Assembly: GCF_024138165.1 (NCBI RefSeq) | Contig: NZ_CP100000.1 | Location: forward strand, 3,286,001 to 3,350,000 | Source: Halorussus vallis | GTDB taxonomy: Archaea; Halobacteriota; Halobacteria; Halobacteriales; Haladaptataceae | Length of the DNA stretch: 64,000 nt | Reading direction: 5' to 3' | Part shown: positions 1,217 through 61,547 of the stretch, piece after piece | How positions within the stretch are numbered: position 1 is the first letter of the stretch | Layout: every line of letters starts with the position of its first letter | The notes under the pieces: generated by a model | Seen by the model: only the letters and a program-made list of their open reading frames with translations | Told to the model about the DNA's origin: nothing | Databases searched by the model: none | Program-made: the position numbers and the translations under genes

Positions 1217-1383
1217 AGGCGGTTTCGAAGGCTGAACGCCACACATGGCGCGCGCTGGCGCGGTCCCGCGGTTTGGGTCCGCGCCATCTTCGTGCGAGGG
1301 ATGAGCATCGCAGGCCGTCAGGCCGAGAAGCGCAGTCGGTTGGGGAGGGTGTGGCCTGCGGTTGCGGTGCTGTTTGGGTGGAT

Positions 1384-1503
1384 GAAAGGGGCCGGCCGGT
1401 CGCGTATACTTTAGTCGCCTCTGCAGGCCACTATTCTCGCCGAGCGCCGCAGGCGCGAGGCATGAATATCCTGCAGAGCGACCGCGAGCGGGCGGGGGCT
1501 TTC
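1384..1503 (+). repeat. structured repeat, full copy 2
   Basis: Begins GAAAGGGGCC and ends GGGGGCTTTC. The long arm pairs GTCGCCTCTGCAGG with CCTGCAGAGCGAC, leaving one unpaired C. The apex is GCC-GA-GCGCC-GCA-GGCGC-GA-GGC, flanked by the conserved CTATTC and GAATAT. The outer helix is damaged (GGCCGGTCGCG against CGCGAGCGGGC) and the 5' box is degenerate, so this may be a decaying copy. It lies on the opposite strand to its neighbours, head to head with copy 1. Confidence 0.75.
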
Positions 1504-1579
1504 GGAGTCATCACTGTCTTGGCTGTCTCGGAGGGTGCATGGCGAGCAGATGGAGCTTTTTGGCTGTTCTCGGTGTCCA

Positions 1580-11122: not shown

Positions 11123-11265
11123 ACTCGGGTCTCCGCAGGGACGCGGGAAAAATCAGTCCATCTCCAGCGCAAGCGCGCACCTTCGAGTGTCGGCGTAACC
11201 GCGAAGGAGAACGTTTCCGACCGCTCGTTACGGAATACGACTACGACCGCGAACGAGAACGCTTC

Positions 11266-11510
11266 GAAAGCCCCCACCCGCTCGCGGTCGCTGGCCGGGA
11301 TATCCGGGTCGGGCCTCGCTCTGCGGCTTCGCCGCTCTGCCTCGCGGTTGCCCTCGCTGTCGCTCGGACAACCGCGCGTGCGGCCCTCCCCGAATAGTGG
11401 CCCGCCCAGGCGACCACGTCCTTCGGACGCGAGCGGGCGGCCCCTTTCAGTCCCACCTGCCGGCTGGTTAGTGGAGCGCTTCCGGTGGATTGTGTCACCG
11501 AGCGCCTTCC
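11266..11510 (-). repeat. structured repeat, full copy 3 (expanded apex)
   Basis: The core runs 11448 down to 11266 (183 nt), with the 5' box to about 11510. On the minus strand: 5' box GGTGGGACTGAAAGG, outer helix GCCCGCTCGCG/CGCGAGCGGG, side hairpin CGTCC-GAA-GGACG, and long arm GGTCGCCTGGGCGGG paired with CCCGGCCAGCGACC. The apex is enlarged by about 60 nt and still ends in GCGGC-GAA-GCCGC. Conserved CTATTC and GGATAT are present. It starts 109 nt after the pantoate kinase stop on the same strand. Confidence 0.85.
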
Positions 11511-24644: not shown

Positions 24645-24850
24645 GGCGACGCTCGGTGATTCGGGCCACGGGACGCGCTCGGCGAATCAACCGGCGGGTA
24701 GGACTGAAAGGGGCCGCCCGCTCGCGTTCACGTGGTCGTCTCAGCAACCCCTATTCGGTGAGCGCCGGCAGGCGCGAACCGGATATGTTGCTGAGCGACC
24801 GCGAGCGGGCGGGGGCTTTCGAGGCAGTCAGGGTTGCTATTGTTGCCGCA
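24645..24850 (+). repeat. structured repeat, full copy 4
   Basis: The core is 24706-24820. 5' box GCTCGGCGAATCAACCGG then GACTGAAAGGGGCC; outer helix GCCCGCTCGCG/CGCGAGCGGGC; a very short side loop; long arm GGTCGTCTCAGCAAC paired with GTTGCTGAGCGACC. The apex is CGGT-GA-GCGCC-GGCA-GGCGC-GA-ACCG with conserved CTATTC and GGATAT. The 3' box is GGGGGCTTTCGAGGCAGTC. It lies downstream of the MATE gene and convergent to gatB. The remaining 200 bp to gatB shows nothing recognisable. Confidence 0.9.
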
Positions 24851-51944: not shown

Positions 51945-52778
51945 TCAGTTCCACGGCGCGAATCCCGGGTCGACCTGCCGGGAACGCTCGTCGATACCGT
52001 CTATCGTCGCCACGTCCTCGTCGTCGAGTTCGAGGTCGAGCGCGCCGAAGTTGTCGCGGATGTGCTCCTCGCCGGTCGCCTTCGGGATGGTGGCGACGCC
52101 GTCGCGCTGGAGGAGCCACGCCAGGCTGACCTGCGCGGGCGAGGCGTCGTGCTTCTCGGCGACCTCGACGATTTCGGGCACGTCGAAGACCTTCCCGCGG
52201 GCCAGCGGCGAGTAGGCGACGACGTTCACGTCGCGCTCGCGGCAGTGAGCCAGCAGGTCGTTCCGGGGCAACAGCGGGTGCATCTCGACCTGGTTGGCGA
52301 ACAGCGGCGCGTCGAGCGCGTCGAGCGCCGCGTCGACGTCCTCCGGTCGGAAGTTGCTCACGCCGACGTGGCGAATCAGCCCGTCGTCGCGGAGTTGGTC
52401 GAACGCCGCGAGGGTGTCCTCGGGGTCGTACTCGTCGGCGGGCCAGTGGACGTACAGCAGGTCGAGGTGGTCCACCCCGAGTTTGTCGAGGCTCTCCTTC
52501 GTCGAGTGAATCACGTCGTCGTACGAGAGGTTCGCGTTCCAGACCTTGGTGGCGAGGAAGTAGTCCTCGCGGCCGACGTCGGCCCGCGAGAGACCCTCGC
52601 CGACGTACTCCTCGTTGTCGTATATCTGGGCGGTGTCGACGTGGCGGTAGCCCATCTCCAGGGCAGTTTCGACGCTCTCGGCGCACTCTTCGGGGTCGGT
52701 GTTCTGCCAGGTGCCGAGGCCGAGGCGCGCCGTTCCGTCCAGCGTCGGCTCGTCGGTGGTCTCCGTGGACTGAGCCAT
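51945..52778 (-). CDS. aldo/keto reductase
   Basis: 277 residues. NADPH-dependent TIM-barrel reductase. Catalytic tetrad visible as GYRHVDTAQIYDNE (Asp and Tyr), FLATKVWN (Lys) and LLYVHWP (His). The cofactor end has IPKATGEEHIRDNFGALDLEL. The protein closes with the FAPWN ending common to its neighbour. Substrate unknown; family members reduce methylglyoxal, sugars or other aldehydes. It forms a tandem pair with the paralogue at 52884-53690. Confidence 0.92.
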   Translation of the reverse strand: MAQSTETTDEPTLDGTARLGLGTWQNTDPEECAESVETALEMGYRHVDTAQIYDNEEYVGEGLSRADVGREDYFLATKVWNANLSYDDVIHSTKESLDKLGVDHLDLLYVHWPADEYDPEDTLAAFDQLRDDGLIRHVGVSNFRPEDVDAALDALDAPLFANQVEMHPLLPRNDLLAHCRERDVNVVAYSPLARGKVFDVPEIVEVAEKHDASPAQVSLAWLLQRDGVATIPKATGEEHIRDNFGALDLELDDEDVATIDGIDERSRQVDPGFAPWN

Positions 52779-52883
52779 AGTACTTCCTGTTGGGCGAGCG
52801 CGCCGATAGGGGTTACGGCGTCGGAAATTCGCGCTCGTTTCGGCGCCGAGTCGACGACTCGACTCGGCATAGCGAGATTCTCG

Positions 52884-53690
52884 CTAGTTCCACGGCGCGA
52901 ACTCGGGATCGCCGAGTCGCTCGCGCCGGTCGATACCGTCGATCGTCGCGAGGTCCTCGTCGTCGAGTTCGAGGTCGAGCGCGCCGAAGTTGTCCCGGAT
53001 GTGCTCCCCGCTGGTCGCCTTCGGGACGGCCGCGACGCCCTTCTCGAACAGCCACGCGAGACAGACTCGCGCCTCGCTGACGCCGTGCTTCTCGGCGACC
53101 GTTTGCACCTCCGGAACCTCGAATATCCGGCCGTGCAGCAGCGGACAGTACGCGACGAGGGCGATGCCGCGGCGCTCGCAGTACTCCCGGAGTTCCGTCT
53201 GCGGGAGCAGGGGGTGGCACTCGACCTGGTTGGCGACAATCGGAGCGTCGCAGACCTCCCGGGCCTCCTCCAGCAGGTCGGGCGTGAAGTTCGACACGCC
53301 GACGTGGCGAACCAGCCCGTCGTCGCGCAGGTCGGCGAACGCGCCCAGCGTGCCCTCGGGGTTGTAGGTGTCCGTCGGCCAGTGGACGTACAACAGGTCG
53401 ACGTACTTGAGGCCGAGGCGGTCGAGGCTCTCGCGGGCGCGCGCCGGCACGTCCTCGGCCGCGAGGTCGTCGTGCCAGAGCTTCGTGGCGACGAACACGT
53501 CCTCGCGGGGCACGTCGGCCCGGGCGACGCCCGCGCCGACCGCCGCCTCGTTGTCGTAGTACCGTGCGGTGTCGACGTGGCGGTAGCCCGCCTCCAGTGC
53601 GGTTTCGACGCTCTCGGCGCATTCCTCGGAATTGGTGTTCTGCCAGGTACCGAGGCCGAGGCGAGGGACGACCGAACCGTCGTCTGTCAT
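52884..53690 (-). CDS. aldo/keto reductase
   Basis: 268 residues from the ATG at 53690, which has AATATG about 28 nt upstream; an ATG at 53720 would bury that box. Tetrad seen as GYRHVDTARYYDNE, FVATKLWH and LLYVHWP. Cofactor motif VPKATSGEHIRDNFGALDLEL. It is about half identical by eye to the adjacent aldo/keto reductase, which starts 106 bp downstream on the same strand, so a tandem duplication. It is divergent from an HTH-10 regulator that may control one or both. Confidence 0.9.
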   Translation of the reverse strand: MTDDGSVVPRLGLGTWQNTNSEECAESVETALEAGYRHVDTARYYDNEAAVGAGVARADVPREDVFVATKLWHDDLAAEDVPARARESLDRLGLKYVDLLYVHWPTDTYNPEGTLGAFADLRDDGLVRHVGVSNFTPDLLEEAREVCDAPIVANQVECHPLLPQTELREYCERRGIALVAYCPLLHGRIFEVPEVQTVAEKHGVSEARVCLAWLFEKGVAAVPKATSGEHIRDNFGALDLELDDEDLATIDGIDRRERLGDPEFAPWN

Positions 53691-53805
53691 GTCACTCGGT
53701 TCGAGGAACGACCGCGGCATATTCGTTTCGCCGAAATCTGACCGGTACGGAGGGAAACACTTTTGCTCTCGCTGTCGTACGAGACAGGATAACAAGGTCA
53801 GACCG

Positions 53806-54510: not shown

Positions 54511-54566
54511 TTTTGTTCGGGTTGGTGTTCGAGAACTGAGGGGGTAGTCGTTACGGCGACCACCTC

Positions 54567-54780
54567 GAAAGCCCCCGCTCGCTGGCGGTCGTTCCGCGGG
54601 ATATTCGGCTCGCGGCTTCGCCGCTCGCCGAATAGTGGCCCGTCGGAAGCGACCAAGGGCCTGCGGCCCGCCAGCGAGCGGCCCCTTTCAGTCCCACCCT
54701 TCCGGTTGACCGGCCGAGCACGCTCCGGTGGTTGGTGTCACCGCGCGCGACCGGACCGAAACCGGTCGCGCGCAACTCTC
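54567..54780 (-). repeat. structured repeat, full copy 5 (best-paired copy)
   Basis: The core is 54689 down to 54567; the 5' box extends to about 54750. On minus: GGTGGGACTGAAAGGGG; outer helix CCGCTCGCTGGCGG paired with CCGCCAGCGAGCGG; side hairpin GGGCC-GCA-GGCCC; long arm GGTCGCTTCCGACGGG with CCCGCGGAACGACC; apex ATTCGGC-GA-GCGGC-GAA-GCCGC-GA-GCCGAAT. Each helix differs in sequence from other copies yet pairs. It starts 110 nt after the SDR stop on the same strand. Confidence 0.92.
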
Positions 54781-55759: not shown

Positions 55760-57187
55760 ATGGTGGATGACAGCGTTTCACGGCGGCGATGGCTCACTGC
55801 GCTCGGCGCGACCGGTGCGGCCGGTCTGGCCGGTTGTATGGGCAGTGACGAGAGCGGACAGAACACGACGACCGACGGCGGCACGACCGGTGACGACTCA
55901 GGCATGACGGAAACGACGGCGAAGACGAGCAAGCAGTCGAACGTCTCGGGCAAAGTGAAGATCGGCGTGCTCCAGCCGACCTCCGGCGACCTCAAGTACT
56001 ACGGCCAGCAGGCGTTGTGGGGCTTCTACTCCGGGCTGGCGTACAAGAACGGCGGCGACCCCATCAAGAAGGCGACCACGGGCACCCACACCGCGACGGT
56101 CGGCGACGTCGAGTACGAACTCGTCGTCCGGGACACCAAGTTCAAGGCCGACACGGCCCAGTCGCTGGCGACCGACCTCGTCCAGAACGAGGAGGTCGAC
56201 CTGCTGTTCGGCTGTACCTCCTCGGGGTCGGCCAACCGCGTCATCAAGACGGTCGTCAAGCAGGCCCAGGTCCCGATCATGGTCGGACCTGCGGCGTCGG
56301 CCGACATCACGTCGAGTTCCGAGACGTGCGGCAACCTCGTGTTCCGCGCGAGCGAGAACACCGCGATGGACGCCCGGTCGGGCGGCAAGTACGTCGCTAG
56401 GGAGTCCGACGTGAGCAAAGTGTACCTGTTCGGCGCCGACTACTCGTTCGGCAAGGCGGTCGTCAACAACTACGAGCAGGTGCTCAAAGACGAGGGCGTC
56501 GAAATCGTCGGCAAGAAGTTCGTCCCGCAGGGCTACTCGGAGTGGAAGGGCCTGCTCGACAACGCTCAGAAGGCGGGCGCGGAGGGCATCGTCGGCGGGT
56601 TCACCGTGGCGACGCTCCCGAAACTGTTCACCTCGTACCTCAACGGGAACTACGACTACCGCGTGTTCGGCGGCTTCGCCACCCGAATCACCAACGCCAT
56701 CGTGGGCCAGACGCTCCAGAAGGCGCTCGGCAAGCCGCTGACCAAGGAGAAGCTCCGGAACTCGAAGCTCGGACCGTTCACGACGCGCTACCACTGGAAC
56801 CAGTACGACAACGAGATCAACAGCGCGTTCGTCGACAGCTACACCAAGACCTACGGCACCGTCCCCGATCTGTTCACGTCCGGGACGTTCACCGCCGCCT
56901 CGGCCATCGTCCAGGCGGTCCAGCAGAGCGGTTCGACGAAGGGCGCGGACATCGCCGAGGCGCTCCGCGGGATGACCGTCGCGGACACGCCCAAGGGGAA
57001 GAACGGCTACACCTTCCAGAAGTACAACAACCAGGCCCGGTCGGCGATGACCGTCGCGAACCCGGTCCCGACCACCGACCAGTGGGCCGATAGCTGGAAG
57101 GCCGCCATCATGCCCAGCAAGCCGCTCTCGACCATCCCGGCCGACCAGGCGACCATCCCGAAGAGCGGCGTCAACTGCTCGCTGTAG
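55760..57187 (+). CDS. ABC transporter substrate-binding lipoprotein (branched-chain amino acid type)
   Basis: 475 residues. Tat-type lipoprotein signal SRRRWLTALGATGAAGLAGC with the lipobox Cys near 27, then a Thr/Ser/Gly tether. The periplasmic-binding fold type I is seen in KIGVLQPTSGDLKYYGQQALWG, VQNEEVDLLFGCTSSGSANR, VGPAASADIT, KVYLFGADYSFGKAVVNNYE and GGFTVATLPKLF. The ligand could be an amino acid, amide, urea or aromatic/carboxylic acid. First gene of an operon with ATPases and permeases downstream, spaced 3 bp from livG. Confidence 0.92.
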   Translation: MVDDSVSRRRWLTALGATGAAGLAGCMGSDESGQNTTTDGGTTGDDSGMTETTAKTSKQSNVSGKVKIGVLQPTSGDLKYYGQQALWGFYSGLAYKNGGDPIKKATTGTHTATVGDVEYELVVRDTKFKADTAQSLATDLVQNEEVDLLFGCTSSGSANRVIKTVVKQAQVPIMVGPAASADITSSSETCGNLVFRASENTAMDARSGGKYVARESDVSKVYLFGADYSFGKAVVNNYEQVLKDEGVEIVGKKFVPQGYSEWKGLLDNAQKAGAEGIVGGFTVATLPKLFTSYLNGNYDYRVFGGFATRITNAIVGQTLQKALGKPLTKEKLRNSKLGPFTTRYHWNQYDNEINSAFVDSYTKTYGTVPDLFTSGTFTAASAIVQAVQQSGSTKGADIAEALRGMTVADTPKGKNGYTFQKYNNQARSAMTVANPVPTTDQWADSWKAAIMPSKPLSTIPADQATIPKSGVNCSL

Positions 57188-57190
57188 GCC

Positions 57191-58024
57191 ATGTTACGAA
57201 CTTCGGGACTGACGAAGGAGTTCGGCGGCCTCACCGCCGTCGACGACGTCGACTTCGCGCTCGAAGCGAACGAACTCTGCTCGCTCATCGGGCCGAACGG
57301 CGCGGGCAAGACGACGTTCTTCAACCTGCTGACCGGGACGCTCTCCCCGACGCGCGGAACCATCGAACTGCGGTCGGGGGACGGCGACGGTGGCTGGCGC
57401 GACATCACGGACGAGGAGCCACACGAGACGGCGAGCCTCGGGGTCCACCGGTCGTACCAGATCACGAACGTCTTCCCGACGAACACGGTGCTGGAGAACG
57501 TCCGCGTCGCGGCGCAGGCCCACGGCGACGACGCCGCGAAGTTCTGGCGCAACGCCGGCGCCTTCGAGGACCACATCGAGGAGGCCTACCGCATCCTCGA
57601 CCGGGTCGGACTCGCCGAGGAGGCCGACACCCCGACAGAGAGCCTGAGCCACGGCGCCAAGCGCCAGTTGGAGGTCGGGGTCGCCCTCGCGGGCGACCCC
57701 GACGTGCTCCTGCTCGACGAACCGAACGCCGGCGTTTCCTCCGAGAGCGTCGACCGCATCATCGACCTCATCGAGGACGTGGCCAGCGACCACGCGGTCC
57801 TGCTGGTCGAGCACAATATGGACATCGTGATGAACGTCTCCGACCGCGTGGTCGTGCTCAACCAGGGCGCGGTCATCGCCGAGGGAACCCCGGAAGCGGT
57901 CCGGGGCGACCCGAAGGTCCAGGAGGCGTACCTTGGCGGCTACGAGGCCGGTAGTCTCAGCAGAGACGCGGAGTCGGACGCGGCGTCCGACTCCGCGTCG
58001 GACCCCGAGGAGGGAGCGGCGTGA
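57191..58024 (+). CDS. branched-chain-type ABC transporter ATPase (LivG-like)
   Basis: 277 residues. Walker A IGPNGAGKTT (about 35-44), signature SLSHGAKRQLEVG, where LSHGA replaces LSGGQ, Walker B DVLLLDEPNAGV, and the switch His in LLVEHNMDIVM. The signature change is typical of LivG-type subunits. The C-terminal 25 residues (SRDAESDAASDSASDPEE) come from a perfect palindrome (57967-57997) and are probably disordered. The next gene, livF, is 361 bp away, separated by a structured repeat. Confidence 0.92.
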   Translation: MLRTSGLTKEFGGLTAVDDVDFALEANELCSLIGPNGAGKTTFFNLLTGTLSPTRGTIELRSGDGDGGWRDITDEEPHETASLGVHRSYQITNVFPTNTVLENVRVAAQAHGDDAAKFWRNAGAFEDHIEEAYRILDRVGLAEEADTPTESLSHGAKRQLEVGVALAGDPDVLLLDEPNAGVSSESVDRIIDLIEDVASDHAVLLVEHNMDIVMNVSDRVVVLNQGAVIAEGTPEAVRGDPKVQEAYLGGYEAGSLSRDAESDAASDSASDPEEGAA

Positions 58025-58029
58025 CGCGA

Positions 58030-58290
58030 GCTTTCGGGGTTCGAATCGGGACGCGCTCGGAGGGACAACTGCCGGGTGGGACTGAAAGGGGCCGCCCGCT
58101 CGCGGCCGAAGGCCGTGGTCGTCTCAGCGACCCCTATCGGGCGAGCGGCGGAGCCGCGAGGCGTGAATATCCTGCAGAGCGACCGCGAGCGGGCGGGGGC
58201 TTTCGAGACGTTTGTCGCATCGGATACAGTCGTTCACGGCGAGCGGGCGGTGGCTTTCGAGGCGGTCACTGCCTCGGTTGCCGTGGTGCT
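58030..58290 (+). repeat. structured repeat, full copy 6, inside the transporter operon
   Basis: The core is 58084-58204. 5' box GCTCGGAGGGACAACTG then GGTGGGACTGAAAGG; outer helix GCCCGCTCGCG/CGCGAGCGGGC; side hairpin CGGCC-GAA-GGCCG; long arm GGTCGTCTC...GAGCGACC; apex GC-GA-GCGGC-GGA-GCCGC-GA-GGC. The 3' box GAGCGGGCGGTGGCTTTCGA is repeated at about 58241-58270, showing local duplication. It lies between livG and livF in the coding direction. No gene in the 361-bp gap. Confidence 0.9.
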
Positions 58291-58374
58291 TTGCGGCGAG
58301 CGACCGGAAAGTCTCCAGCTAGCGGTCACTCGGCCAACACAGGCCGTGACACGACCGAATCCATTTCGATCAGA

Positions 58375-58382
58375 GAGGTGAT
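58375..58382 (+). promoter_or_regulatory. ribosome-binding site of livF
   Basis: GAGGTGAT close to the GTG start at 58386. A strong Shine-Dalgarno supports translation of livF from a leadered message, i.e. from an operon transcript that crosses the structured repeat. Confidence 0.75.
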
Positions 58383-58385
58383 TTC

Positions 58386-59084
58386 GTGAGTTTACTCGAA
58401 GTCGAAGACGCACACACCTACTACGGCGAGAGCCACATCCTCGAAGGCGTCTCGCTCGAAGTCGAGGAGGGCGAAGTCGTCGCGCTCGTCGGGCGCAACG
58501 GCGTCGGCAAGACAACCACGCTCAGGACCATCCTCCAGTTGACCCCGCCGCGGGAGGGCGCGGTGCGCTACCGCGGCGAGGACGTGACCGGCGACGACAC
58601 CCACGAGGTGGCCTCGCGGGGCGTCGGCTGGATTCCGGAGGGCCGGCGCATCTTCACCCAGCTCTCGGTCGAGGAGAACGTCCGCGTGGCGGTGCCCGAC
58701 GGCGAGAACGTCGACGAGGGCGTCGAACTCGCCTTCGAGACGTTCCCCGACCTGCGCGAGCACCGTGACCGGGACGCCGGCAACCTCTCGGGCGGCCAGC
58801 AGCAGATGCTCGCCATCTCGCGGGCGCTGGTCGGCGACAACGACCTGCTGTTGGTCGACGAACCCAGTGAGGGCCTCGCGCCGCTCATCGTCGAGCGCGT
58901 CGCCGAGGCGCTGGCGGACGCCGCCGCCGACACCACCATCCTGCTCGTCGAGCAGAACCTCCCGCTGGCGCTCGACCTGGCCGACCGCTTCTACGTCATC
59001 GACAACGGGCGCGTGGTCGAGGAGGGCGACGCCGCGAGCGCGTCGGCCGACGACGAGCGACTCAGGAGGTATCTGAGCGCATGA
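58386..59084 (+). CDS. branched-chain-type ABC transporter ATPase (LivF-like)
   Basis: 232 residues with a GTG start. Walker A LVGRNGVGKTT, Q-loop before GWIPEGRRIF (the PEGRRIF motif is typical of LivF), signature NLSGGQQQMLAI, Walker B LLLVDEPSEGLAP, and LVEQNLPLALDLADR with Gln in place of the switch His. Pairs with LivG to power the importer. Ends with a 4-nt overlap into livH. Confidence 0.94.
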   Translation: MSLLEVEDAHTYYGESHILEGVSLEVEEGEVVALVGRNGVGKTTTLRTILQLTPPREGAVRYRGEDVTGDDTHEVASRGVGWIPEGRRIFTQLSVEENVRVAVPDGENVDEGVELAFETFPDLREHRDRDAGNLSGGQQQMLAISRALVGDNDLLLVDEPSEGLAPLIVERVAEALADAAADTTILLVEQNLPLALDLADRFYVIDNGRVVEEGDAASASADDERLRRYLSA

Positions 59085-60151
59085 GCGGAATCGCACTCGC
59101 CGGTGCGAGCGCCGGCGCGAACTCGCTCGCGTTCGCACCCGCGAATCCGGTCGTGCTCGCCGGCTTCGTCGACGCGCTCGGCCAGTTCCTGCGACCCGGC
59201 AACCTCGCGTCGGTGTTCGTCGACGGCCTCTCGAAGGCCGCCATCTACGTGATGATCGCCGGCGGACTGACGCTCATCTTCGGGCTGATGGGCGTGCTCA
59301 ACTTCGCCCACGGCTCGCTGACGATGATCGGCGCGTATCTGGGCGGCCTGCTGATGGTGACGGCGGTCGGCGGCGGGTCGGGTCCGGTGACGCGACTCCT
59401 GCTGTTCTTCGTCGCGCTGGCGGCGACGTTCGCCGTCCTCGCCGGCCTCGGCGGGGCGATGGAGGTCGGCCTGATACGACGGCTGTACGACCGCCCGCCG
59501 ATTTACCAGATACTGCTGACCTTCGGGTTGACGCTGATACTCGACGAACTGGTCCGCATCGTCGTGTTGTTCTACGGACTTCAGCCGACCAGCGACTGGC
59601 AGGCCGCGCTCGGCACCAAGCCGGCGTTCCTCTCCCAATCGGTCGAGATCGGGGGGCTGTCGGTGGCGGGCCTCGACCTCTTCGAAATCGCGCTCGGCGC
59701 GCTCACCGTCGCGGCGCTGTGGGCGTTCCTCACCCGGACGCGGTACGGCCTGATAATCCGGGCCGGGAGCGAGGACGCCGAGATGACCGAGGCGCTCGGC
59801 ATCGACGTGCGGCGGGTGTTCACCGTCGTCTTCGCGCTCGGCGCGGGCGTCGCGGGCGCGGCCGGCATGCTGCTGATGTGGGACCCGGCGTGGGCCGCCA
59901 GCGTCCCGCTGGGCGCCGACACCCTGCTCCCGGCGTTCGTGGTCGTCATCGTCGGCGGCCTCGGCACGTTCCGGGGAACCGTGGTCGCGGCGCTGCTTGT
60001 CGGGATGGTCGACGCGGTGATGACCTGGTGGTTCGTCAACGAGATCGAGTTCGCCGGTCTGCCGGAGATGACCATCTTCCTCATCCTCGTGGTGATGCTG
60101 ATACTGCGGCCCCAGGGCCTGTTCGGCGTCGAGGAGGTGGGCGGCCATTAG
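59081..60151 (+). CDS. branched-chain-type ABC transporter permease (LivH-like)
   Basis: 356 residues, about eight helices. Hallmarks: GLTLIFGLMGVLNFAHGSLTMIGAY near residue 70, LLTFGLTLILDELV, AGSEDAEMTEALGIDVRRVFTVVFALGAGVAGAAGML (the cytosolic EAA-like loop), and VVVIVGGLGTFRGTVVAALLVG, ending LRPQGLFG. ATGA overlap with livF. The N-terminal 40 residues (AGASAGANSLAFAPAN) are longer than in bacterial LivH. Confidence 0.94.
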   Translation: MSGIALAGASAGANSLAFAPANPVVLAGFVDALGQFLRPGNLASVFVDGLSKAAIYVMIAGGLTLIFGLMGVLNFAHGSLTMIGAYLGGLLMVTAVGGGSGPVTRLLLFFVALAATFAVLAGLGGAMEVGLIRRLYDRPPIYQILLTFGLTLILDELVRIVVLFYGLQPTSDWQAALGTKPAFLSQSVEIGGLSVAGLDLFEIALGALTVAALWAFLTRTRYGLIIRAGSEDAEMTEALGIDVRRVFTVVFALGAGVAGAAGMLLMWDPAWAASVPLGADTLLPAFVVVIVGGLGTFRGTVVAALLVGMVDAVMTWWFVNEIEFAGLPEMTIFLILVVMLILRPQGLFGVEEVGGH

Positions 60152-60209: not shown

Positions 60210-61547
60210 GTGACGGGCGACGCCGACCCGGTCGACGACGTGGACGCTCCGACCGACGCGGCGGCGGAAACCGCGCCCGACGACTCCCGGACTGAGTCGG
60301 CGACGTCGTGGCCGGTCCGCTACGCGCGCGAACACCTCGCGCACCTCGCGGTCGTCGCGTTCCTCGCGGCGTACCCCGGCATCTACTCGGTGCTGGTGAC
60401 CTCGCCGCTGGGCGCGGAGATGACGACGGTGCTGCCCGACGTGGAGACGATGATAACCGTCTTCTACTTCGCGCTGTTCGCCATGTCGTTCGACTTCATC
60501 AGCGGCTACACGGGCTACCTGAGCTTCGGCCACGCGGCGTTCTACGGCACGGGCGCGTACTTCGTCGTGCTCGCGTCGAACGGGAAGATTCCGTTCGTCG
60601 CCGTCGACACGCCGTTCGTCGTCCTGCTGGTGCTGGCCGGCCTGGCCGCTGTGACGCTCTCGCTGCTCATCGGCGCGGTGTCGTTCCGGCTGACCGGCGT
60701 CTACTTCGCGATGATCACGCTGGGCTTCTCGCAGGTGCTGTACGTGTTCGTCCGCGGGTGGGACTACGCCGCGAGCAACCCGCGGGACGGCCCCGCGGTG
60801 CTCGAACGCACCGAACCGTTCAGCGTCGGCGTGCCCGGCGTTGACTCGCTGAACCTCGCCATCGGACAGCTCTCGGGCGACGAGATAGAGGGGCTGTTCG
60901 GCCTGCTCAACTTCAGCGCGACCGAAGTGTCCTACTACATGGTCGGACTGGTCGCGCTGGTCTGTTACTTCGCGATGCAGCGCATCATCCACTCCCCGTT
61001 CGGGAAGGTGATGGTCGCCATCCGCGAGAACGAGGAGCGCGCCGCGGCCATCGGCTACGACACCTTCTGGTACAAACTGGGCGCGTTCGCGGTGAGCGCG
61101 TTCTTCGCCGCGGTCGCCGGCGGCCTGCTCGCCGGCTTCCAGCGGTCGGTGTCGCCCGAGAACTCGTTCTACTTCCTCGTGACCGGCGACGCCCTGCTGG
61201 CGGCCATCATCGGCGGCTTCGGCACGCTCGCCGGGCCGCTGTACGGCTACCTCTTCGACGAGACGGTCACCGAGTTCCTCTCGAAGACCGGCGAGGGCGG
61301 CGGCCTGCTCCCCTACCTGCGGAGCCACCTCGGCGAAGGCACCCTCTCGACGGAGGTCTACAACGGCCTGACCGTCCAGCAGGGCATCGACACCTTCCTG
61401 AACGGTCACGCCGCCCTCTACGTCGGCGTGGTGTTCGTGCTGTTCGTCCTCTTCGTGCCGAACGGCCTGCTCGGGACCGTCCGGGACCGCCTCGGCGGCC
61501 CGGTCGGGAAGGAAATCGCCGAGCGACTGCGGAGTGACGAGAAGTGA
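60210..61547 (+). CDS. branched-chain-type ABC transporter permease (LivM-like)
   Basis: 445 residues from the GTG at 60210. The frame is open back to an ATT at 60147 which has GGAGGTGG at 60133-60140 with ideal spacing, so an earlier non-standard start is possible and would add 21 residues. About nine helices follow a polar, acidic N-terminus. LivM features: FDFISGYTGYLSFGHAAFYG, GVYFAMITLGFSQV, MVAIRENEERAAAIGYDTFWYKL, and ALLAAIIGGFGTLAGPLYG. It ends with an overlap into the KAS III-like gene. Confidence 0.92.
   Translation: MTGDADPVDDVDAPTDAAAETAPDDSRTESATSWPVRYAREHLAHLAVVAFLAAYPGIYSVLVTSPLGAEMTTVLPDVETMITVFYFALFAMSFDFISGYTGYLSFGHAAFYGTGAYFVVLASNGKIPFVAVDTPFVVLLVLAGLAAVTLSLLIGAVSFRLTGVYFAMITLGFSQVLYVFVRGWDYAASNPRDGPAVLERTEPFSVGVPGVDSLNLAIGQLSGDEIEGLFGLLNFSATEVSYYMVGLVALVCYFAMQRIIHSPFGKVMVAIRENEERAAAIGYDTFWYKLGAFAVSAFFAAVAGGLLAGFQRSVSPENSFYFLVTGDALLAAIIGGFGTLAGPLYGYLFDETVTEFLSKTGEGGGLLPYLRSHLGEGTLSTEVYNGLTVQQGIDTFLNGHAALYVGVVFVLFVLFVPNGLLGTVRDRLGGPVGKEIAERLRSDEK

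Follow-up and report, generated by a model that had tools for sequence, protein, structure and literature searches.

A haloarchaeal family of dispersed hairpin elements with a long-resident, putatively cis-acting copy between livG and livF

Introduction

REP/BIME elements of enterobacteria lie, for example, between malE and malF, and the hallmark of a REP is a palindrome of 20–40 nt with a conserved tetranucleotide at the foot of its stem. The element described here, found in a liv operon of Halorussus vallis, is similar in that it is a dispersed intergenic hairpin with many copies per genome, occurs in head-to-head pairs and lies in some cases inside ABC importer operons. It differs in being archaeal, ~135 nt long and branched or bulged with covariation over 42 pairs, and its multi-helix core (127–137 nt) is not a REP-type palindrome.

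Among haloarchaea, the account of Haloquadratum repeats in PMC3119063 describes MITEs, PATEs and SMRs as short multi-copy repeats without a transposase, the SMRs being given there as ~110 bp long, having inverted ends and lacking a known mobiliser. Our element resembles MITEs in the terminal inverted repeats around the copies inspected in one distant genome (G298), though none were recognised around Halorussus copies, and in a site that is occupied in this genome and empty in relatives (24696), but differs from MITEs, PATEs and SMRs in a core that is structurally conserved across families, in interchangeable interiors and in old positional residence; the comparison with SMRs (HqIRS40-43, HqIRS55) is by description only. 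Its covariation pattern is RNA-like, as in Rfam families, though no Rfam family matches it, and like conserved cis-acting RNAs it combines a covarying structure with a fixed place and direction next to orthologous genes (livG–livF in 15 of 16 genomes).

Results

The livG–livF gap contains a structured element. The window, the whole stretch of 64,000 nucleotides that was analysed, carries a liv operon on the forward strand, beginning with a livK-like periplasmic binding protein gene (55760–57187; Pfam Peripla_BP_6, E = 1.8e-59) and continuing with the ABC ATPase gene livG (57191–58024; ABC_tran and BCA_ABC_TP_C), the ABC ATPase gene livF (58386–59084; ABC_tran, E = 1.3e-31) and the permease genes livH (59081–60151) and livM (60210–61547; both BPD_transp_2). 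Junctions along the operon measure, in order, +3, +361, -4, +58 and -4 bp. An earlier note made from the DNA letters had described every junction other than livG–livF as an overlap or a tiny gap, which holds for the +3 and -4 bp junctions but not for livH–livM with its 58 bp; it was right that the 361-bp gap (58025–58385) holds a full structured copy, as seen with a sequence pattern and with a covariance model that places the core at 58074–58208, and that livF has its own ribosome-binding site, a Shine-Dalgarno-like GAGGTGAT (58375–58382) ending 3 nt before the GTG start codon. By eye, neither a T-run 3′ of the hairpin in this copy nor a TATA-like box 5′ of livF was seen in the window. Two open frames, of 122 and of 101 codons, cross the element (58021–58389); these are probably a by-product of high G+C, and their translation is possible.

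The core is a 135-nt class I copy which begins 49 bp 3′ of livG in sense orientation and scores 100.7 bits (E = 5e-22) with the broader covariance model R2 and 118.4 bits with model R1. Its outer helix, P1, is made of GAAAG (P1a, 58084–58088) pairing with CTTTC (58200–58204), a conserved 3×3 internal loop formed by unpaired GGG columns (58089–58091 and 58197–58199), and P1b, whose 5′ strand CCGCCCGCTCGCG (58092–58104) pairs with 58184–58196 and shows changes on both sides in 8 of 13 pairs; the whole 3′ side, P1 strand, GGG loop and CTTTC together, spans 58184–58204 in the consensus structure and in the folds. Inside P1, the fold of this copy has an optional small side hairpin, P2 (58105–58114), which is missing in many copies, followed by P3 enclosing P4 (58117–58183, from alignment A1 and the fold).

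Degenerate repeats surround this core. A head unit (...GGGACGCGCTCGGAGGGACAACTGCC, 58046–58073), recognised in upstream alignments of 44 copies from this genome, belongs to a short motif found 5′ of many copies, tandem-repeated in some and repeated in the liv orthologs of genomes G001 and G008. The 3′ side holds two degraded repeats of the core's own 3′ arm: a tail unit (GGCGAGCGGGCGGTGGCTTTCGAGGCGGTCAC, 58238–58269), identified as a near-duplicate by a blastn self-match and by the tail alignment of the 44 copies, and a third, degenerate unit (58293–58316) read from the sequence. The tail unit at 58238–58269 could pair alternatively with the 5′ arm. The livG–livF copy is an imperfect example of its family, with mismatched P3 arms (~58117–58131 and ~58169–58183) that pair type CTCAGCGAC with type CCTGCAGAG, and a folding z-score of only -1.6, compared with -4.6 to -7.2 for four siblings folded alongside.

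A large family is present in this genome. The pattern TGAAAGGGGC-N75..105-GGGGCTTTC occurs four times in the window against zero expected from 100 shuffles, blastn with the livG–livF gap finds 48 places in the genome, and with a covariance model trained on 44 complete copies 60 places score ≥100 bits, a minimum for the number of strong copies. These counts refer to class I, as the models largely miss class II and minimal copies (see below). The 44-copy set excludes locus L043, which duplicates the start of the window, and matches without either core end, hence two window copies, 11262–11458 and 1129–1176, lie outside it. A simple ORF caller places the 44 copies in intergenic DNA, except for two overlapped by predicted ORFs. 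They occupy every gene context: 17 are codirectional with their neighbours, 13 lie between divergent genes, eight are antisense and six convergent, which does not point to a single role in operons. A shared promoter 5′ of the Halorussus copies was rejected, since their upstream A+T profile has no TATA-like peak.

Covariance models place four sibling class I copies in the window: 24696–24824 (+), lying between a MatE gene and gatB; 54563–54699 (-); 1374–1507 (+); and 11262–11458 (-), the longest at 197 nt. The copy at 1374–1507 stands head-to-head with a minimal copy (1129–1176, -), which consists of the P1 frame only. Such head-to-head pairs, ~40–290 nt apart, were seen at this site (1129–1507), at L024, L035, L039 and L041, and at L153, L155, L156, L161 and L162; in distant genomes the partner resembles class II. 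Elsewhere in the window, 51945–53741 (-) holds two adjoining paralogous genes, at least one an aldo/keto reductase, with DNA blocks 81–85% identical lying 936–939 bp apart.

The fold is conserved and its interiors are modular. The consensus comprises P1 (GAAAG/CTTTC, the GGG/GGG internal loop and ~13 GC-rich pairs), an optional P2, P3 and P4. In the covariation alignment (112 matches, 111 distinct rows, identical rows counted once), which was fitted to the model and thereby favours it, 97.2% of cells are paired and 27 of 42 pairs changed on both sides; rows of alignment A2 are not all independent, with loci L044–L075 and the G genomes coming partly from the same assemblies. None of 500 shuffles reached any of five covariation measures, and the real values were far above slid controls. 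When the 44 copies of this genome were aligned with MAFFT, without fitting to the model, 20 of 42 pairs likewise changed on both sides. With the apical helix excluded, G-U pairs exceed A-C mismatches by 63 to 19, which points to the sense strand as the one that folds, although a G-U excess alone cannot separate RNA from single-stranded DNA. The fold is kept by selection, with a bias to the sense strand.

All members have in common a frame made of the GAAAG/CTTTC helix, the 3×3 GGG/GGG internal loop and the GC-rich helix, within which lies the class I interior (P3/P4), a class II interior or none; in the L031 copy the GGG/GGG loop is closed. Class II, whose signature is the motif GAACCCCGGCGACGTAAGCACCGCAG or a variant of it, accounts for about ten copies in this genome by pattern search, and the third class is the bare frame, as at 1129–1176.

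The livG–livF copy is an old resident. Orthologs of livF (≥83% identity, range 83–100%) were found in 16 Halorussus genomes including this one; G007, with only a 53% paralog, and G016, a 62% complete assembly without a match, had none that qualified. The outer frame is present at the livG–livF junction in 15 of the 16, always in sense, in gaps of 199–478 bp. The interior is class I in 12 of these junctions, class II in G006, minimal in G011 and rearranged in G004, and the frame ends are kept in the latter three despite an interior lost, rearranged or replaced; RNA folds of the G006 and G011 copies retain the GAAAG/CTTTC helix and the 3×3 G loop. Because the frame is retained while the interior changes, the frame rather than the class I interior is suggested to be what matters at this site. 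The proposal in the earlier note that the element might be a recent insertion is contradicted by this retention, and comparison of the junction among relatives found the element missing from one genome only, G009, which is without the whole family.

In G009 the livG–livF gap is 40 bp, and its genome yields no covariance-model match and, with both strands searched, no match to the frame pattern; the same pattern matches 56 times in G001, 59 times in G013 and 64 times in this genome, with zero matches for a reversed control pattern. A tree of LivG and LivF (midpoint-rooted, two linked genes only) sets G009 beside G001 with 99/97 support, and the absence is most simply explained by loss of the whole family, liv copy included, in G009. 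The pair is a candidate case for loss of a trans-acting factor. Nearest-neighbour identities do not separate liv orthologs cleanly from paralogs: the best match is in some cases a liv ortholog, in some a paralog of the same genome and in some another copy, so that the liv copies may be orthologous or may have evolved in concert.

The family is widespread and some positions are shared. Matches occur in 17 of 18 genomes of the genus at E ≤ 1e-3 (from one to at least 149 each, with up to 150 candidates scored per genome) and in 26 of 28 genomes at family level at E ≤ 1e-6. In Halobacteriales, with R2 and nine candidates scored per genome, 138 of 342 genomes, belonging to 50 of 89 genera, match at E ≤ 1e-6, although a lone match close to this threshold may be due to chance. 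In six distant genomes, all 20 stretches inspected at strong matches had the same frame and interior. By comparison of neighbouring genes, a junction shared with one of the 44 copies of this genome was found for four of six copies in G010, five of ten in G002, three of ten in G017 and none of one in G007; with 44 junctions out of some thousands, chance is roughly estimated at ~1–2% per copy. In G006 (53 matches) only three of 30 tested copies lie at such junctions, so most copies turn over. One shared site is a junction recurring in several species between a FecCD permease gene and an ABC ATPase gene, which is a second ABC importer operon; the remaining shared neighbour genes are functionally unrelated.

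Rfam gave no match in the 64 kb at gathering score, a best E of 0.46 for a targeted 351-base stretch searched up to E = 10, and only chance-level matches at five plasmid loci searched up to E = 1. No description of the element was found in the literature, chiefly open-access, that was searched. What appears new is this family, with its exchangeable interiors in a common frame and its breadth among haloarchaea; dispersed intergenic hairpin repeats are known as a kind.

Copies disperse in the manner of a non-autonomous mobile repeat. The 24696 copy is a lineage-specific gain, its site being empty in six relatives that retain both neighbouring genes; target duplication there is ambiguous. In G298, a member of another family, class I cores at L146–L150 lie in units of 276–285 bp that end in inverted repeats of the GGTRGTGTTCAGATA type, present around five of five inspected copies (one degenerate), with an exact 8-bp target duplication at L147, seven of eight bases at L150 and none at the other three. 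The core can therefore travel in a MITE-like carrier. Around the Halorussus copies no terminal inverted repeats were recognised by eye and no clear target duplication was seen. Family dispersal of this type goes together with long residence at livG–livF.

The Y1 transposase (PF01797) has matches in ten of 18 genomes of the genus and is absent from G001, G003, G004, G005, G008 and G011, which have 33–108 element matches each. As PF01797 does not track copy number, dependence on a RAYT-type Y1 transposase was rejected, which sets the family apart from REP/RAYT systems; the same absence bears on PATEs, IS605-related elements with near-terminal palindromes as in IS605-type elements. Phage origin was likewise unsupported, with no match among 50,697 phage records. 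Fifteen predicted viral or proviral IMG/VR contigs (L166–L180) carry a frame-pattern match, which may lie in viral or in flanking host DNA.

Some copies lie on plasmids. On Haloarcula marismortui pNG500 (L134, 2507–3748) and in counterparts at L135, L137, L140–L145 and L269, a conserved unannotated region of ~1.2 kb is divergent from a SOSS-B/RPA-like gene and includes a class I core ~230–240 bp downstream of a TATA-like AGTATATAAA. This megaplasmid region has the appearance of a long non-coding RNA gene. Its interpretation as a group II intron was dropped after the Rfam scan gave no intron match. On a Haladaptatus salinisoli plasmid (L136, 1742–4547) the core has on one side a divergent gene for an OB-fold DNA-binding protein and on the other a gene for a metallophosphatase (‘DNA repair exonuclease’), after which comes an AAA ATPase gene.

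Discussion

Our results indicate that the livG–livF gap holds an old resident class I copy of an undescribed, haloarchaea-wide hairpin family, most likely acting in cis in the liv mRNA, a reading to which we assign a probability of roughly 55%. The hairpin would fold within the polycistronic liv transcript and might form a stability, processing or translation-decoupling barrier between livK–livG and livF–livH–livM, with translation of livF restarting from its own Shine-Dalgarno sequence, so that upstream and downstream output would be altered. Such a cis effect would probably be REP-like. The role suggested in the earlier note, in which processing or partial termination would set the ratio of upstream to downstream products, is compatible with these results. 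The cis role is favoured by the covariation, the G-U bias, sense retention at 15 of 16 liv junctions, the other shared junctions and the second ABC importer operon, and is weakened by the poor folding of the liv copy, the mixed nearest-neighbour identities, the turnover of most copies, their occurrence in every gene context and the existence of G009 without any copy.

Another plausible, though less probable, explanation is that the family is a selfish, non-autonomous MITE/REP-like element whose hairpin is selected for its own mobilisation, liv being a tolerated old landing site without a host role. Copy numbers from 0 to >100 within one genus, the gain at 24696, the 285-bp units with inverted repeats and target duplication in G298 and the complete absence from G009, sister of the element-rich G001, all fit this explanation, and a single-stranded DNA hairpin would be expected to show the same G-U bias. 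It accounts less well for a junction and orientation shared by 15 of 16 species at LivF protein divergences of 8–17%, for shared junctions retained in genomes with few copies, and for the missing PF01797 in six element-rich genomes. That each copy, liv included, is instead a small or long non-coding RNA gene acting in trans seems improbable: the Haloarcula region, with its upstream TATA-like sequence and divergent SOSS-B/RPA-like gene, is of the expected kind, but the 44 Halorussus copies have no TATA-like peak upstream and the liv element follows livG by 49 bp in sense. We similarly consider it unlikely that the element is a transcription attenuator or terminator, or hosts an internal promoter for livF. 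A strong GC hairpin between genes and A+T-rich stretches 5′ of livF in some orthologs could be read in this way; these stretches vary among orthologs, however, and the window copy has neither the T-run nor the TATA-like box.

A more tentative idea, doubtful on present evidence, is that a putative haloarchaeal RNA- or nucleic-acid-binding factor recognises the GAAAG-GGG/GGG-CTTTC frame, and that the family persists or vanishes with this factor. If so, genomes such as G009 would have lost the factor and every copy together, liv included, dozens of transcripts would be handled at once and the interiors would be interchangeable modules; the element-free G009 and its element-rich sister G001 are a natural pair in which to seek such a factor.

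Multi-copy structured intergenic elements are well known in bacteria and poorly described in archaea. The family reported here joins the dispersal of a mobile element with old fixed positions inside operons, across many haloarchaeal genera, and allows a direct genetic test of whether REP-like hairpins set the ratio of subunits within an archaeal operon.
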